Source: Deinococcales bacterium (GTDB lineage Bacteria; Deinococcota; Deinococci; Deinococcales; JAAFIG01). Taken from it: a stretch of 64,000 bases of DNA. Shown one piece after another: positions 49,879 to 58,392 of the stretch (position 1 is the first letter of the stretch; each line of letters opens with the position of its first letter). Made by a program: the position numbers and the translations under genes. The DNA lies in assembly GCA_025352125.1 (NCBI GenBank), contig JANXTZ010000034.1, positions 86,383-150,382 of the forward strand, given 5' to 3'. The notes beneath the pieces are model-generated. The model did not search any database. It had not been told where the DNA came from and was given only the letters and a program-made list of their open reading frames with translations.

Positions 49879-52800
49879 ATGACCTTGGTTCTGAATCATC
49901 ACAAATCGAATAGGATGGTCTTTATGCCAAGCGGCAGGGCAAATGATGACCTCCGAAGCGTCATCCCGAGAAAGTTGCGGTTTGAGTTGGAGCGCCCAAG
50001 GTTATTGGCGCAACTCGAGGCTACGAGCGATACGCAACTGATCGCTTTGATTGCGCCGTCTGGTTACGGCAAAACCACTTTGCTGGCGCAGTTTGCCAGA
50101 ACCGATGTACGCAAAGCAATCTGGCTCGAGCTAAGCGAAGACCACACCGACCCCGTGGTGTTGGCACATGCTTTGGTGGGCGCGTTGCGGATAACGCAGC
50201 CAAAATTGTCACTCGAGCATTGGTCGCAAGGCAGCCAAACCGCTTCGGCGGACATGTTGGCGCAGGTATTGGCGCGTGACCTCAACCGCAGCGATCAGAA
50301 CCTGGGTTTTTTCTTGGATGGGGTGCATCTGCTTGGGGTCGATGCAAGCCGTTGGCTCGAGGGTTTGCTGGGTTTGTTAAACGAAGGACATCGGTTTTTG
50401 ATTGCGGGTTACGACGCCGAGCACTTGCCACTCGCCAAGTTGGTGGCGCAGGGACAAGCACTGTTGTGGAGCACCCAAGATTTGGCGTTCACGATCAAAG
50501 AAACCAGAACGTACTTGCTCGAGCGCAACGTCGCCGACGATCCAGATGTGGTGCAATCTGCGCTCGAGGGCTGGGCGGCGGGGTTGGCGCTGGTGGCTTC
50601 GGGAATGTCGTTGCAGGTCAATCCGAGCGATTTGATGCTCGAGGCGCTGAAACGTCTGCCCCAAGCGGTGCAGGTTGCCTTGCCCGAAGCTGGCGTCTGT
50701 GAAATCTGGAACGAAGAGGCGGCGGCGCAACTTGGTTGCCGATTGCCTGCGGGTTGGTTGAACGTGGTGCGACAAACCGGTTTGCCGCTGACTCCGCTTG
50801 GGCATCAAACCTACAGACCGCTTCAGGTGATGCTCGAGGTGCTGCAAACCCAACTCAAACGCAACGTAGATCGTCATGCCGAATTGTCGTTGAAGGCTGG
50901 ACTCCAAGCCCAGGCGGTGGGCGACCCCATGCGGGCGCTAAAACATTACCGCAATGCTGGGTTAAACAGTCAGGCTTTGGATTTGGCGCTGGGCGTCGCG
51001 CCAATGTTGTTTGACCGCGCCGAGTTTCGGTTGCTCAGGCAGTTGCTCGAGTCGTTTGAAGCAGATCAGCTTCCAGCCAAATTGCAAGGTTTTTTGGGCA
51101 TTGCCCTGATCGAAACGGGCAAGGGAACGCACGGTGAGGTTTTGCTGCGTAAACTCCGTTCTGAGGGTCAAGCCGATACCCAGGTGCTGTACTGGCTGGG
51201 CAGGTTGGCGTATCACGAGGGGCAACTCGAGCGAACGCTTAAGCTGGCTGAAGACGGTTTGGCATTGCAAAACCCTGACGCCAATGTTTCTGGGTTGTTG
51301 CGGCTCAAAGCCCATGCCTTAATGGGTTTGAACCGTCAGCCCCAGGCGCTCGAGGTGATGCGAGAAGCCGTCGGCTGGGCAGAAAACCATGACAACTTGA
51401 GCGAACTGGGCAACAACCTCAGCAGTTTAAAATTGATTCAGTACCGTCTGGGGCAATGGTTTGATTGCGAAAAGTCGATCCTGCGGGCGATGGAGGTTTA
51501 CGAGGCGCTCGGCACACCTGTTCGGACGTTGCCACTCTTGATTGACCTGGCAAGTTTGCGTTACCTGCAAAACCGCGCTTCTGAGGCTTTCGCGCTGATC
51601 GAACAAGGTTTGGCACTGGCAACGCGCGAACAGAGCCGCTTGCTGCCGTATTTTCTCGAGCTTCGGGGCGATGTGTACTTCTGGCAACAAGAATTTGAAC
51701 TGGCAATTGCAGCGTATCAAAATACCATTTCAAGTGCTTTGGAGCTGGGCGATCAGGTTTTGGCGCAGATCATCGAACTCAAGCAAAGCGAAGCCCTCCG
51801 GCGGGCAAACCAAAACGCAAAAGCCTCAAACATCCTCGAGCGTCTGAGCCAGGAAGCCCAGTCGAACGCCGACCTTCGGGGTGTTTACGCATTTTATCAG
51901 GGCATTGCCAGTTTCTCGAGCAACGCTCTTGATGCGGCAAAGGAATATTTGAGCGAAGCGCTGGAGAAATCTGAAGAACACACCCACAGACCTCGCGCTC
52001 GAGCCTACCTGGCAGAAATTGCGCGGCAACAAAACACGCTCGAGTTTGAACAGGTGACAGCGTTGATCGCCAGCCTCGACGCCATGCCGCACGACAAAGT
52101 GTTGATGGTCGATGCCGAACCATTGAATGAATTGTTCGCAAATTGCATCGAACGCGGTTGGTTTTCCGAGCGGTTTGGTCGTTTTGTGGACCATGCGTCA
52201 ACTCAAGAGACGCCTGCAACCATCTCAGAAACGATCAAACCAGTCTTTGAACTCGAGATTCTGACCTTGGGCAAACTCCAAGTCAGTTTGAACGGCACAG
52301 CGATTCGGATTCCGTTTGCCAAAGCGGGCGAGTTGCTGATTTTTGTGGCGCTGCACGGCGCTTCAAGCCGCGAGGAAATCATGAACGCACTTTGGGATGG
52401 TTCAGATGAAAACCGTCATCACGAGTATTTTCGGGTCGCCGCGAGGCGTTTACGCGCCGCCCTGAGTGAGCACCCAGACGTGGGATTCAACGCGTTTCCA
52501 TTCGAGAACAAACGCTATTCGCTCGCGCCGCAACTCAGCCCAAAACTTGATTTTGGTCTGGCACAACACGCCCTCGAGTCGGGCGGCATAGAGCGATTAC
52601 ACGCCGCACTCGAGGTCTACAATGGCGAATTTTTGCCTGGAGTCAACACCGAATGGGTTGCCGCCCTTCGCACCCGTATCCTCGAGCAAACCGTTGCCGC
52701 CGCCGCGACCCTGGGCGAGCAACTCGAGCAGACCGAACCGCGCGAGGCGCTGAAAATATACCGCCGCGCCATCGAACTCGAGCCGCTGTCTGAAGTCAGT

Positions 52801-52959
52801 CATCTGGGTTTGATCCGTGTACATTTGGCGCTCGGTGGCGTGGCGGCGGCAAACCAAGCCTACGGCGCGTATGCCCGGATGCTGTCTGAAGAGTTTGGCT
52901 TGCAACCCAGCGATTCGTTGCGGCAAAGTCTGGAAAGGTTGGGGTTGCGCATGGTTTGA
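49879..52959 (+). CDS. MalT-like ATPase / TPR regulator with C-terminal BTAD domain
   Basis: LIALIAPSGYGKTTLLAQFARTDVRKAIWLELSEDHTDPVVLAHAL; C-terminal LEILTLGKLQVSLNGTAIRIPFAKAGELLIFVAL plus BTAD. Confidence 0.88.
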   Translation: MTLVLNHHKSNRMVFMPSGRANDDLRSVIPRKLRFELERPRLLAQLEATSDTQLIALIAPSGYGKTTLLAQFARTDVRKAIWLELSEDHTDPVVLAHALVGALRITQPKLSLEHWSQGSQTASADMLAQVLARDLNRSDQNLGFFLDGVHLLGVDASRWLEGLLGLLNEGHRFLIAGYDAEHLPLAKLVAQGQALLWSTQDLAFTIKETRTYLLERNVADDPDVVQSALEGWAAGLALVASGMSLQVNPSDLMLEALKRLPQAVQVALPEAGVCEIWNEEAAAQLGCRLPAGWLNVVRQTGLPLTPLGHQTYRPLQVMLEVLQTQLKRNVDRHAELSLKAGLQAQAVGDPMRALKHYRNAGLNSQALDLALGVAPMLFDRAEFRLLRQLLESFEADQLPAKLQGFLGIALIETGKGTHGEVLLRKLRSEGQADTQVLYWLGRLAYHEGQLERTLKLAEDGLALQNPDANVSGLLRLKAHALMGLNRQPQALEVMREAVGWAENHDNLSELGNNLSSLKLIQYRLGQWFDCEKSILRAMEVYEALGTPVRTLPLLIDLASLRYLQNRASEAFALIEQGLALATREQSRLLPYFLELRGDVYFWQQEFELAIAAYQNTISSALELGDQVLAQIIELKQSEALRRANQNAKASNILERLSQEAQSNADLRGVYAFYQGIASFSSNALDAAKEYLSEALEKSEEHTHRPRARAYLAEIARQQNTLEFEQVTALIASLDAMPHDKVLMVDAEPLNELFANCIERGWFSERFGRFVDHASTQETPATISETIKPVFELEILTLGKLQVSLNGTAIRIPFAKAGELLIFVALHGASSREEIMNALWDGSDENRHHEYFRVAARRLRAALSEHPDVGFNAFPFENKRYSLAPQLSPKLDFGLAQHALESGGIERLHAALEVYNGEFLPGVNTEWVAALRTRILEQTVAAAATLGEQLEQTEPREALKIYRRAIELEPLSEVSHLGLIRVHLALGGVAAANQAYGAYARMLSEEFGLQPSDSLRQSLERLGLRMV

Positions 52960-53496: not shown

Positions 53497-55281
53497 ATGA
53501 ATTTAAGAAATTGGATCATCGGCAGTTTTGGGCTTGGCATCGCCCTGTCTTTCGCGGCGTGCTCGCAAACGCCCGTCACACCCGAAATCCCCTCGCAGGT
53601 ACAATCCATTACGGTCGGCAAGCAAGTTTTTCGTTACGAGATCGAAAACGGTCTTGCCATGTACCAGGGCGATATTGTCCTTGGCACAAGCGAACAACTC
53701 GAGAACCTCAAACGAAACCAGCGCAGCGTTTTCCACGATCAAGACTGCAACTGGTTGTACTGCTCGGACAACGATTACCGTTGGAAAAATGGTGAAATCC
53801 CGTTCCTGATTGACTCGAGTGTCACCAGCTTGGGCAACACCCACATTCAGGAGGCTATTGCTGAGTGGACTGCCAGAACCCGAATTCGTTTTGTCCCGCG
53901 AACCACCCAGGGCGATTATGTGGTCTTCAAAAAAGGCAGTTCGGCGGGCGCGTGTTCCTCGCAGGTGGGTCGTCAGGGAGGGTCGCAAGACATCAATTTA
54001 ACGCCCAGCGGCGATTGCTCTCGAGGGGCGCTGGTTCACGAGATTGGTCACGCGGTCGGTTTATGGCACGAGCAAAGCCGTTCTGACCGAAACACACACA
54101 TCAAGATTCTCTCCCAAAACATTGAATCTGGTCGAGAGCACAACTTTGACACACAAGTCGATGATGGTCTGGACATTGGAGGCTACGATTACGCCTCGAT
54201 CATGCACTACGGCGCGAATGACTTTAGCAAAAATGGTCTACCAACCATTGAAACCATTCCGGCGGGAATTCCCATCGGTCAACGCAGCGGTCTGAGCGCG
54301 GGCGACATCGCATCAGTCCAATGGTTGTATTCACAAAACATGGTCATCTCTGACGGCGCGGCAGGCAACTGGCGCAGCTTTGGAAATTCGCCAATCAAAA
54401 CCAGCGACATGGCGATAGGTGATTTCAACGGCGACGGACGCAGCGATTTGTTTTATGCCGATTCGGTCAACTGCGTTTGGTACGTTTCCTATACGCAACT
54501 CAGCAGCCCTGTGCTTCAACCAATTCCTCCGGTAGCCGCTCAAACCAAGTCTCAAGTCAACCCACAAGCCAATTTTAAACTTCCCCTTTTCGGCACAAGT
54601 TCCTTTGGACCCTGGACGGTTCTCAGTGCGGGCAAATGCGAGAGCCTCGGCAGCCTGCGGTTCGGCGATTTCGACGGTGACCGCAAGACCGATGTCTTTG
54701 TCACCAGTGGCGGACACTGGTACACCTCCAAGGGCGGCGTGGATTGGTGGGTGCTGATCAACGACTCGAGCTATCCATTGTCCCAATTAGCCTTTGGTGA
54801 TTTCAATGGCGACCACAAAACCGACATATTCTATGGCAACGGCAGTGGTTGGTTCATCACATACAGCGGTTTGGGAAATTGGCAACTCGCTGGATACTCA
54901 ACCCTAAAAGTACCCGATTTGGCGTTTGGTGACTTCAACGGTGATGGCAAAACCGATCTCTTTTACAGCAATGGAAGTATATGGCAAACCACGTTAAGCC
55001 AAGGCACTTGGCTTGGTCCGTGGACGCAGATCAACACCTCGAGTTTCAAGTCTTCGGAAGTGAAAATTGGTGATTTGAACGCCGACCGCATCGCCGATGT
55101 CTACCGTTCCGACGGCGACGGCTGGAAGGTTTCTTACGGTGGAACGGGGCTTTGGCAGGCATTGCCGAGTCAATTGAAGGTCGCGCCGTACACCAAGATC
55201 ACAGGCTTTTTCTTTGGCGATTTTGACGGCAATGGCGTCTCGGACGTGTTCGGCACGTTGGCATGGAAAGGTTCTTACTGA
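53497..55281 (+). CDS. Lipoprotein astacin-like (M12A) metalloprotease with FG-GAP/VCBS-type repeats
   Basis: LSFAACSQTP lipobox; HEIGHAVGLWHEQSRSDR; YDYASIMHYGAN; six DFNGDGxxDLFY-like repeats. Confidence 0.92.
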   Translation: MNLRNWIIGSFGLGIALSFAACSQTPVTPEIPSQVQSITVGKQVFRYEIENGLAMYQGDIVLGTSEQLENLKRNQRSVFHDQDCNWLYCSDNDYRWKNGEIPFLIDSSVTSLGNTHIQEAIAEWTARTRIRFVPRTTQGDYVVFKKGSSAGACSSQVGRQGGSQDINLTPSGDCSRGALVHEIGHAVGLWHEQSRSDRNTHIKILSQNIESGREHNFDTQVDDGLDIGGYDYASIMHYGANDFSKNGLPTIETIPAGIPIGQRSGLSAGDIASVQWLYSQNMVISDGAAGNWRSFGNSPIKTSDMAIGDFNGDGRSDLFYADSVNCVWYVSYTQLSSPVLQPIPPVAAQTKSQVNPQANFKLPLFGTSSFGPWTVLSAGKCESLGSLRFGDFDGDRKTDVFVTSGGHWYTSKGGVDWWVLINDSSYPLSQLAFGDFNGDHKTDIFYGNGSGWFITYSGLGNWQLAGYSTLKVPDLAFGDFNGDGKTDLFYSNGSIWQTTLSQGTWLGPWTQINTSSFKSSEVKIGDLNADRIADVYRSDGDGWKVSYGGTGLWQALPSQLKVAPYTKITGFFFGDFDGNGVSDVFGTLAWKGSY

Positions 55282-55489: not shown

Positions 55490-55645
55490 ATGAAAAGCCT
55501 GACCAAAAGAATTTTGATTGTTCTGCTGACCATCACATGCTGTATGCAGGTTGACGCCTTTGCAAAGCCAAAAGCCTGTGGTGATATTTGTCCACCCAAA
55601 CCAGACCCCTGTGAAGGACTCACGCATCACTTTGCTTGCCCATAG
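55490..55645 (+). CDS. Small secreted Cys-rich peptide (51 aa, not in ORF track)
   Basis: Manual translation MKSLTKRILIVLLTITCCMQVDAFAKPKACGDICPPKPDPCEGLTHHFACP*; signal-peptide-like N-terminus, AAGGGG upstream. Confidence 0.6.
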   Translation: MKSLTKRILIVLLTITCCMQVDAFAKPKACGDICPPKPDPCEGLTHHFACP

Positions 55646-55772: not shown

Positions 55773-56435
55773 ATGAAATCAATCTTTCAACCTGTCGTTT
55801 TTGTTCTCGGACTTGCGTTTGCCATGACCTCTTGCGGCTCAAACCCTGTAACTGAGGGCTTAACGCCCGAAACAAGCCAAGCCGCGCTCCTGAAAGACCC
55901 CAACCTGGACGGGAAAGCCATTTTTCGGGGGATCGCCTTTGGTGAACAAACCCTTGGTCAGTTGCTGCCCGAAGTTTGGCGCGGCGGTCTGAGTATTCAC
56001 GATCTCGCCCAGACCAAAGCCGACCGCGACTCGAGCCTCGAGACTGCCAATGCCTTCGTGTTGAAGATCGAGCGTTTTGACCCAAGGTTTTTCTCTATGC
56101 TCTCCAAATCCATGCGAAGCGGGAATCCATTACTGGTCGAGGCGGCACTCGGGCAAGTCAGCAAGACACTCGAGCAGATGTTCCCACCGGAAGTTGACCC
56201 GTTACCCAAAGGCAATGTCGCTTTGAGCTTATTCATTTACAAGAACAAATTTATTTACAAGAATAAAGCTGTTGCGACAGACAGGTATGTCAAGCCTTAT
56301 AAATACATCAGTGTTGTTAACACTGCCCTGAATCAAGAGGACAGTCCATTAAGCCAACTCTTGAACGATAACAAATTGATGTCTTTGCAGCAAGAAACCC
56401 TGATCGCCAACCTGACAAAACGACTGGCAATTTAA
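55773..56435 (+). CDS. SdpC-family (sporulation-delaying-protein-like) toxin precursor, lipoprotein
   Basis: AMTSCGS lipobox; LDGKAIFRGIAFGEQTLGQLLPEVWRGG resembles the conserved SdpC N-terminal region; directly followed by SdpA- and SdpB-like genes. Confidence 0.72.
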   Translation: MKSIFQPVVFVLGLAFAMTSCGSNPVTEGLTPETSQAALLKDPNLDGKAIFRGIAFGEQTLGQLLPEVWRGGLSIHDLAQTKADRDSSLETANAFVLKIERFDPRFFSMLSKSMRSGNPLLVEAALGQVSKTLEQMFPPEVDPLPKGNVALSLFIYKNKFIYKNKAVATDRYVKPYKYISVVNTALNQEDSPLSQLLNDNKLMSLQQETLIANLTKRLAI

Positions 56436-56512
56436 GTAGCGGTCAATTCTTCTCGAGCCGAAAGGGGATTGTGCAAAAGCACAGTCCCTTTGGAAAGGTT
56501 GACGTGAGAGCA

Positions 56513-57088
56513 ATGTTGATCAAATTTGGAAGACTCAATTTACAATCTTCCACCAACCTGGGTGTACTGGCACTGGTTCATCTGGGCTTGCTTGCCACCA
56601 TTGCCATCACCGCAGCCGTCGCGGCAATGCCCTTCAACACCCTCAATCTGACAGACGATGCGCGAAACACGGTCATGAGCTTGATGCCCGAAGGTTGGGG
56701 ATTTTTTACCAAAAGCCCACGCGACCCAGAAATGCAGGTGGCTGTTTTACAGGGTGGCAGGTTGATTAAGCTCAACATCGTCTCGAGTTTCCAAGCCAAG
56801 TACGCTTTTGGTTTTGACCGCCTGTCCAGAGCGCAAGGTTTCGAGATTGACGGTTTGCTGAGTCAATTGAAAACCTCGAGTTTGTGGCACGGTTGCCAGC
56901 AAGAGGTTTCGGTTTGCGCTCAGAATTTGACTGTGCAAAAACAGATTGTCAATGCGGTGCAGTTGCCAACATTGTGTGGCGACTTGGTGCTGTTTGAACG
57001 CCGCCCAATCCCCTGGGCGTACCGCGAGAGCAAACCAGTCATGCCCTCAAGATTGACCCGGGTGGAGGTCGTATGCTCTCACGATTAG
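56513..57088 (+). CDS. SdpA-family antimicrobial peptide system protein
   Basis: SLMPEGWGFFTKSPRDPEMQVAVLQGGRLIK...FGFDRLSRAQGFEIDGLLSQL; N-terminal TM. Confidence 0.8.
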   Translation: MLIKFGRLNLQSSTNLGVLALVHLGLLATIAITAAVAAMPFNTLNLTDDARNTVMSLMPEGWGFFTKSPRDPEMQVAVLQGGRLIKLNIVSSFQAKYAFGFDRLSRAQGFEIDGLLSQLKTSSLWHGCQQEVSVCAQNLTVQKQIVNAVQLPTLCGDLVLFERRPIPWAYRESKPVMPSRLTRVEVVCSHD

Positions 57089-58392
57089 GCAAGCAGATTC
57101 TCAGTAAACCCCAGAGCCAAATTTGGACGGTGCTGCTTGGCGTGGCACGCAGCCTGCTGGCGCTCGCCACAGGTTTGACCTTGTTGTTCACCGACACCCA
57201 AACACTGTTCTCGGGCAACCCGAACTTGATGGACAAAAGCCTGTGCTCTGGAATTGATGCCGCAAATTTATTTTGTCTTGTGCCAAGCAGCCAATTGCAT
57301 CTGGCACACCTTTTTGCGTTGCTTGGGCTGGCACTGGTCGCCTCGGGCTGGCGACCACGCTGGACTGGAATACTGCACTGGTGGATCGCCTGGAGTTACC
57401 ACCAAGCAGGTACGTTCGTTGATGGCGGCGATCAGGTCAACATGATCCTGACCCTGCTGCTTGTTCCCGTGACCCTGACCGACCCTCGAGCCTGGCACTG
57501 GCAACGCGCTGCCAGCCAAAAGCATGACCTCGAGCGTCCCATTGCCAAACTCATCGCCCTTGGTTGGTTGTCGTTCATTCGCTTGCAGGTGGGGGTGATT
57601 TACTTTCATGCCGCCACCGCAAAATTTGGCGTTCCGGAATGGCTGAACGGCACAGCCGTGTATTACTGGTTCGGCAGTTCCACCCTGGGAATGCCAGATT
57701 GGTTGCATCCCATTCTCGATCCAATGCTCAACTCTGCCGCCTGGGTGCTCGCCATCACCTGGGGAACGATGCTGCTCGAGATTGGGCTGGTGCTGGGCTT
57801 GCTTGCCGACACAGGTTACCGCCGCAACTTGTTGAAACTGGGCTTGGTCTTTCACGCGGGCATTGCGGTGGTGTTCAGCCTCAGCAGTTTCATGCTTGCG
57901 ATGGACGCCGCACTGTTGCTCTATTTGGGCGATCCAAACTGGAAATTCAGGCTGCCGAATTGGTGGCGTCAAAGTATTCTTACCCCAACCTTTGAACCCT
58001 CGAACCAACGCGCCGTCTTTATTTTTGATGGACGCTGCGGCTTTTGCACCCGCGTCGCCCACAGCCTCGAGCGCCTGGACCAGCACAACCGTTTGCACAC
58101 AAGGGCATGGCAAGAACCCGATATCCTCGAGCGTTACGGGTTAAGCCAGCAAGAGGTCAAAGATGCAGCTTGGTTGCTGCTCGGAAACCGTCGGTTGCGC
58201 GGTGCCGCCGCGATCAACGCCGCACTTGCGCTGAGCACGGGGATTGGGCTGGCGTGGTGGTTTTACTCGCTGCCAGGAATACGCCAACTTCAGGACGGCG
58301 TGTACGGCTGGGTTGCAAATCACCGTCACTGTTTAAAAGGTGTCACGCCGCGCTGCAAAGAACCGATGGTGGAATGCAATGCCGCAGATTGA
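57073..58392 (+). CDS. SdpB/HTTM-like membrane protein fused to a C-terminal DCC (DUF393) thiol-disulfide oxidoreductase-like domain
   Basis: Multi-TM HTTM-like region (SFIRLQVGVIYFHAATAKFGVPEWLNGTAVYYWF) then VFIFDGRCGFCTRVAHSLERLDQHNRLHTRAWQ; overlaps SdpA-like gene by 16 bp. Confidence 0.82.
   Translation: MLSRLGKQILSKPQSQIWTVLLGVARSLLALATGLTLLFTDTQTLFSGNPNLMDKSLCSGIDAANLFCLVPSSQLHLAHLFALLGLALVASGWRPRWTGILHWWIAWSYHQAGTFVDGGDQVNMILTLLLVPVTLTDPRAWHWQRAASQKHDLERPIAKLIALGWLSFIRLQVGVIYFHAATAKFGVPEWLNGTAVYYWFGSSTLGMPDWLHPILDPMLNSAAWVLAITWGTMLLEIGLVLGLLADTGYRRNLLKLGLVFHAGIAVVFSLSSFMLAMDAALLLYLGDPNWKFRLPNWWRQSILTPTFEPSNQRAVFIFDGRCGFCTRVAHSLERLDQHNRLHTRAWQEPDILERYGLSQQEVKDAAWLLLGNRRLRGAAAINAALALSTGIGLAWWFYSLPGIRQLQDGVYGWVANHRHCLKGVTPRCKEPMVECNAAD

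Follow-up and report, generated by a model that had tools for sequence, protein, structure and literature searches.

The window analyzed here, a 64,000-nucleotide stretch of a Deinococcales genome (contig JANXTZ010000034.1, positions 86,383 to 150,382), harbors three consecutive genes resembling the sdpABC toxin operon, and its SdpB protein carries a C-terminal DCC domain, a thioredoxin-like redox domain of the thiol-disulfide oxidoreductase type. The locus raises the question of what a thiol redox domain contributes to the maturation of a peptide toxin. Production of the toxin SDP requires SdpA and SdpB (PMC6818787). On balance, we favor the view that the window encodes an SdpABC-type toxin operon in which SdpB is the catalyst and the DCC domain its thiol redox partner, derived from a paralogue of the same genome. 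To our knowledge, there is no enzymatic explanation for the conversion of SdpC to the active peptide by SdpA and SdpB. The relation of SdpB to the human gamma-glutamyl carboxylase (GGCX) and a conserved base lysine offer a concrete catalytic hypothesis for this maturation, and the repeated independent recruitment of DCC proteins, in one case through a fusion, suggests that a redox step is missing from the present picture. The SdpABC system itself is known; new are the SdpB-GGCX homology, the recurrent DCC linkage with a single fusion, and a polar core in the toxin precursor.

The three open reading frames (ORFs) lie on the forward strand at 55773-56435, 56513-57088, and 57073-58392 in the order sdpC-sdpA-sdpB(DCC), the start of sdpB overlapping the end of sdpA by 16 nucleotides. 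Their assignment, made earlier in a sequence-only reading, held in searches with family models, with SdpC staying below the curated cut-off. The sdpA gene has an ambiguous start and encodes 191 amino acids (aa) from ATG 56513 or 205 aa from GTG 56471; the protein matches PF17418 (E=3e-29, 102 bits, cut-off 25) and TIGR04034 (94 bits, cut-off 53), and among 14 control genomes the SdpA models match only Bacillus subtilis. In the fusion protein, residues 1-310 (57073-58002) make up the SdpB part, which matches TIGR04033 over residues 16-285 with 254 bits (curated cut-off 178). This part is followed in frame by the DCC1-like (DUF393) domain (residues 311-439, 58003-58392), which matches PF04134 over residues 317-422 with 61.5 bits (cut-off 27.8) and shows the DxxCxxC motif as FDGRCGFC, so that the domain proposed from the letters alone is confirmed. 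The 220-aa SdpC-like precursor matches TIGR04032 with E=2.7e-14 and 53 bits (curated cut-off 99), covering profile positions 7-95 of 172, which correspond to the leader only. The SdpA models thus recognize 56513-57088 as well as the B. subtilis control, and 55773-56435 has a sub-threshold match to the SdpC model. All reading frames are intact with normal codon use. A foreign base composition of the whole operon is rejected, since its GC content at third codon positions (GC3) and its density of the hexamer CTCGAG are near the values of the flanking genes. By its maturation proteins, the locus is solidly identified as a genuine SdpABC member, and it is a variant by its fusion and its product.

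SdpA consists of a single N-terminal transmembrane (TM) helix and a soluble domain with a PEGWGFFTKSPRD motif and conserved cysteines at positions 128, 135, 155, and 188. Its AlphaFold model (pLDDT 86) reproduces this architecture, and a fold search of the PDB with this model gave no match at E<=0.001.

SdpB as a relative of gamma-glutamyl carboxylase

SdpB is a homologue of human GGCX, the vitamin-K carboxylase active in blood clotting, as judged from profile searches and the predicted fold. When SdpB profiles built from 7 and 54 sequences were compared with the PDB, only GGCX chains appeared below E=0.01 (E=8.7e-8 and 4.5e-8, respectively). A Foldseek search with the model of the window protein yielded 14 hits at E<=0.001, all of them GGCX, with a probability of 1.00, about 280-330 aligned columns, and 17-20% identity. 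The HTTM-like multi-TM character noticed earlier thereby extends to eight predicted TM helices and membership of the GGCX/HTTM superfamily by sequence and fold. No publication tying SdpB to HTTM, GGCX, or DCC was found in the literature searched; the HTTM link may already be implicit in domain databases.

In the structure of GGCX, K218 serves as the catalytic base, and the vitamin-K pocket is lined by W223, F286, F294, F299, and A214 (PMC12589487). The HMMER alignment places K184 of SdpB on K218, and W190, A180, F260, F268, and F273 on W223, A214, F286, F294, and F299, respectively. K184 is a lysine in 66 of 67 SdpBs (one, L053, has Arg), and Y177, W190, H261, F273, and M277 are kept in all 67. 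F260 and F268 vary across SdpBs, so that the match to the GGCX pocket is only partial. Since SdpB keeps the base lysine and parts of the quinone pocket, it is most likely a catalyst rather than a plain scaffold and would perform base chemistry on the peptide with K184, perhaps assisted by a quinone. Carboxylation by SdpB is not expected from this evidence. An invariant GG within a [DEN]GG[DE] motif lies at the start of TM4; its equivalence to N159/H160 of GGCX is only a guess from topology.

The SdpC precursor, its polar core, and immunity

The SdpC-like protein shows a signal peptide with a lipobox-like MTSC, a conserved leader (DGKAIFRGIAFG ... RSGNPLLVEAAL), a divergent core, and a tail. 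It aligns with proteins of Niallia, Streptomyces, and Tsukamurella annotated as 'sporulation delaying protein family toxin'. Cys21 within the MTSC is its sole cysteine, in accordance with the earlier observation that none follows the lipobox, and the mature part is Cys-free. The predicted released core (residues 147-191, 56211-56345; boundaries inferred), GNVALSLFIYKNKFIYKNKAVATDRYVKPYKYISVVNTALNQEDS, is net positive, polar, rich in Lys, Tyr, and Asn, and devoid of Cys. Its best 19-aa hydropathy is 0.51, compared with more than 1.5 in most relatives; a strongly hydrophobic stretch follows the SGD/SGN motif in nearly all SdpC relatives, unlike in the window. The core contains an 18-bp tandem duplication (56232-56249/56250-56267, encoding FIYKNK twice). 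With a GC content of 0.376 (GC3 0.49), the core alone is AT-richer than the leader (0.544, GC3 0.61), partly because Lys, Asn, Tyr, Ile, and Phe codons are AT-rich.

In Bacillus, the SdpC homologues have the leader in common, and the hydrophobic C-terminal domain differs from one to the next, each having its own (PMC6818787). The variable core of the window precursor fits this family, and its polarity does not fit the described kind. This polarity counts against an SDP-like membrane toxin, not against the identity of the SdpABC locus. Polar cores are also encoded by intact loci of Nonomuraea (L029, 4920-5438), Skermania (L051, 4582-5253), Polyangiaceae (L013, 3477-4412), and Chitinophaga (L032, 2271-2867), whose precursors likewise stay below the TIGR04032 cut-off. 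The Nonomuraea core (FIYHNRSIFKATHMVVNKNKYW) resembles that of the window, and the SdpB of this locus is the closest to the window's (43% identity). The supposition that the product or its chemistry may differ stands as far as the polar core is concerned, which sets this SdpC apart; the lack of Cys is not the whole reason, as many SdpCs are Cys-free.

SdpI (PF13630) is absent from the entire 4.5-Mb source genome, extending the earlier remark on the neighborhood, and the model matches in 5 control genomes. SdpI-type immunity is present in B. subtilis and is not universal. The YIT system has a separate, toxin-specific immunity protein, YitQ (PMC6818787). A small protein with two hydrophobic segments is encoded beside the Calidithermus SdpB (L002, 2851-3384), and a family resembling it occurs near SdpB in six Bacteroidota loci (L015, L046, L055, L059, L060, and L070); these small proteins are candidate immunity genes.

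It is conceivable, though we consider it doubtful, that the operon is intact and yields a non-killing product, its polar core serving as a signal or surface peptide or being what is left of a decayed toxin. The cationic core with its tandem duplication and the genome-wide absence of SdpI would suit such a product. Intact frames and normal codon use speak against it, the polar cores of the other four intact loci indicate a subclass rather than decay, and a cationic peptide can act as an antimicrobial. The existence of polar-core SdpCs suggests that this maturation machinery also gives rise to peptides that differ from the known membrane-active SDP.

Linkage, origin, and predicted side of the DCC domain

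Sdp loci span eight or more phyla. As the full SdpB alignment was too diverse, genomes were scanned with a three-sequence alignment, which recovered 65 loci from Bacillota, Actinomycetota, Bacteroidota, Myxococcota, Bdellovibrionota, Gemmatimonadota, Krumholzibacteriota, and Deinococcota. True SdpBs almost always adjoin SdpA and SdpC, and most of the 65 loci show a complete C-A-B or A-B-C order. Among 111 genomes of the phylum, SdpA is restricted to the source genome and two Calidithermus-type genomes (L018 and L019), whose loci encode SdpC-SdpA-SdpB without DCC. In the SdpB tree, the window's SdpB stands apart on a long branch. It has no well-supported sister and is not sister to Calidithermus; a recent transfer from there is unsupported.

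The survey for co-occurrence of SdpB and DCC with SdpA and SdpC, suggested in the sequence-only reading, found the SdpB-DCC fusion in the window only and unfused DCC genes in about ten other genera. Among about 100 SdpBs in SdpA/SdpC loci, only that of the window is fused: no fusion occurs in the 65 scanned loci or in 14 Myxococcota SdpB loci, and in Bacillota, Actinomycetota, and Bacteroidota, with about 400 genomes scanned for each, no SdpB match spans both parts of the query. In 11 loci of 10 genera (Niallia, Baia, Sporolactobacillus, Fictibacillus, Dokdonia, Nocardiopsis, Flavobacterium, Owenweeksia, Saprospiraceae, and Aureispira), a stand-alone DCC gene is located 0.4-2.0 kb from SdpB; one of these genes is on the opposite strand (L047) and one is a weak match (L044). 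By chance, 0.1 would be expected for 64 loci, given a density of about 1.3 DCC genes in a 5.2-Mb genome (45 counted across 36 genomes). On a Niallia plasmid, the DUF393 gene even overlaps sdpA in the arrangement DUF393-sdpA-sdpB-sdpC.

The source genome holds three DCC genes, and the fused domain groups with a stand-alone one (C84:2296-2724) with a support of 1.0. The Sdp-linked DCCs from Bacillota fall into another group of the tree, together with those from two Bacteroidota. Since the fused domain is sister to a DCC of its own genome, its recruitment was separate from that of the other Sdp-linked DCCs. A BTAD/TPR regulator is encoded upstream of the locus (49879-52959), and its paralogue (L098, 88-1746) lies 0.55 kb before the sister DCC on C84, possibly as part of a duplicated neighborhood.

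We regard it as unlikely that the fusion arose as a neutral accident, or that the DCC is a moonlighting general reductase, with no role in peptide maturation. Such an accident would be in line with the uniqueness of the fusion, with the close paralogue in the same genome, and with HTTM-DCC fusions outside sdp loci, namely large Polyangia proteins without SdpA or SdpC (L071, 2924-5203; L074, 3230-5263). Against this, sdp loci have a stand-alone DCC gene nearby about 100 times more often than chance predicts, Thermaceae operons (see below) show the same architecture built separately, and the domain retains its CxxC (Cys322/Cys325) and its C-terminal cysteines (Cys420/428/435).

The SdpB model shows helices at 20-39, 72-91, 95-112, 118-135, 156-186, 222-243, 247-268, and 271-285. 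These eight crossings, together with Arg and Lys residues concentrated at the N-terminus, in the loops 92-97 and 138-155, at 244-250, and after 285, place both ends of SdpB and the DCC domain in the predicted cytoplasm.

From homology and recurrence, we infer the following mechanism. SdpC would be exported, probably as a lipoprotein-like precursor in which a conserved leader is followed by a C-terminal core that varies. By analogy with Bacillus SDP, for which this step is known, SdpA, with one TM helix and an extracytoplasmic domain, and SdpB, the eight-TM GGCX/HTTM enzyme, would convert it to a released, presumably toxic peptide, with SdpB acting on the exported precursor by GGCX-type base chemistry, perhaps also involving a quinone. 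The DCC domain, on the predicted cytoplasmic side and recruited from the lineage's own paralogue, would most likely be dedicated to SdpB as its thiol redox partner, and stand-alone neighboring DCCs would serve alike elsewhere. In a more specific version, which we hold to be distinctly unlikely, SdpB would be a GGCX-like enzyme that depends on a quinone and either modifies the SdpC peptide or processes it by oxidation, with DCC as its redox partner, much like VKOR for GGCX. If true, the fusion would reveal the missing electron donor of a bacterial peptide-toxin maturation class comprising SdpAB and DUF5819/HTTM proteins.

Several points weigh against the proposed mechanism and toxin production. 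The DCC CxxC is predicted to be cytoplasmic and the GGCX catalytic lysine is on the lumenal side, so that direct electron transfer is not obvious. The sequence match to GGCX is limited to its TM5-TM8 half, K217 of GGCX is replaced by Ala183, and the region of the Glu-site residues N158/N159/H160 has no alignment to SdpB. The SdpB part of the fusion model mostly exceeds a pLDDT of 90, with values of about 95-98 over most of its length, and the DCC part is poorly predicted because stand-alone DCC rows, which misaligned to the SdpB N-terminus, were excluded from the structure alignment. Most SdpB loci are without a nearby DCC, and the whole-genome SdpI search found no immunity gene for the locus. 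Finally, SdpC is below its cut-off and lacks the hydrophobic C-terminal toxin domain, the membrane-acting segment of SDP, and its product may therefore not be a membrane toxin.

The cysteines bear on a further role. Cys58 and Cys68 of SdpB lie in the TM1-TM2 loop, and the four SdpA cysteines co-occur with this pair in 35 of the 38 loci that have it, independently of DCC. The SdpA/SdpB cysteines are present in the window and five other DCC-linked loci (L005, L023, L037, L042, and L044) and absent from five (L031, L043, L046, L047, and L058); in L064, the SdpB pair is missing and SdpA is unscored. Bacillus SDP has a disulfide. A DCC that forms or isomerizes disulfides in the toxin or SdpA, like BdbA/BdbB for sublancin, is very improbable: its CxxC and the co-occurring SdpA and SdpB cysteines would agree with it, but the mature SdpC is Cys-free, DCC-linked loci are evenly split by the SdpA/SdpB cysteines and include few SdpCs with two Cys, and the even TM count and the positive charges put the domain in the cytoplasm.

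Among Actinomycetota DCC proteins close in sequence to the window's DCC domain, four (L159, G867:C30; L161, G889:C163; L162, G1131:C29; L165, G1116:C258) show in-frame TGA codons at both CxxC cysteines (FDGx*GF*TR), and L163 (G1027:C42) at the first only. The TGA-bearing proteins are candidate selenoproteins with a UxxU site, as their sequences suggest. SelB is above its cut-off in 9 of 12 genomes with an internal-TGA DCC and borderline in 1 of 4 others; no publication on UxxU-type DCC selenoproteins was found.

Neighboring genes and comparison with known systems

Just upstream of sdpC, a 51-aa ORF (55490-55645) encodes a signal peptide and a Cys-rich tail (KACGDICPPKPDPCEGLTHHFACP). It was rejected as a conserved partner, since a search of the phylum's 111 genomes brought up no convincing homologue, the best other match (E=0.0036) having internal stops. 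Next to the operon, 53497-55281 encodes a secreted astacin-family metalloprotease with a lipobox and FG-GAP repeats, which resembles LegP in its NCBIfam match (245 bits, cut-off 300). The window contains 406 copies of CTCGAG where its base composition would predict 17, and 49 copies each are present in 9 kb and 6 kb of other contigs (L098 and L099); the hexamer is a highly iterated palindrome, like cyanobacterial HIP1.

Two Thermaceae genomes encode 425-427-aa HTTM-DCC proteins that align to residues 79-422 of the window protein with 27% identity, within DUF5819-HTTM-DCC-M23 peptidase operons (L134 609-3478, G023; L136 246-3481, G045), the latter preceded by a 100-aa secreted hydrophobic peptide. 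They share with the window a fusion of nearly equal length and a preceding one-TM protein, which carries a WGLFAPNP motif and resembles SdpA; hhalign relates SdpA to DUF5819 with a probability of 66% (E=5.6e-5), with a common W-x-x-F ... P and a DRxxR region. They differ in that the SdpB model reaches only 61-65 bits (cut-off 178) and SdpA and SdpC family matches are absent. The Thermaceae operons thus have the look of a peptide-maturation system that is so far undescribed and stands alongside SdpABC, not SdpABC itself.

Linaridin HTTM proteins (such as CrdG) are likewise assumed to act in ribosomal peptide maturation by an unclear mechanism (PMC9927463); their partner is an alpha/beta hydrolase and their precursor class is another. 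GGCX shares the TM1-8 fold, the base lysine, and several naphthoquinone-pocket residues with SdpB, which too would act on a secreted, propeptide-bearing substrate. SdpB differs in lacking K217 and any counterpart of the propeptide-binding and lumenal domains. The Niallia plasmid operon (NZ_CP137637, L005) also encodes a DCC protein with SdpABC, in a gene overlapping sdpA; there, the DCC is separate, upstream, and of another clade, and the toxin core is hydrophobic. From sdpABC (SDP) and yitPOM (YIT) of B. subtilis, the window is set apart by the SdpB-DCC fusion, the polar core, the C-A-B order, the lipobox-like signal, and a genome without SdpI. With them, it shares the three protein families, their tight linkage, and a secreted precursor in which the leader is conserved and the C-terminus variable.
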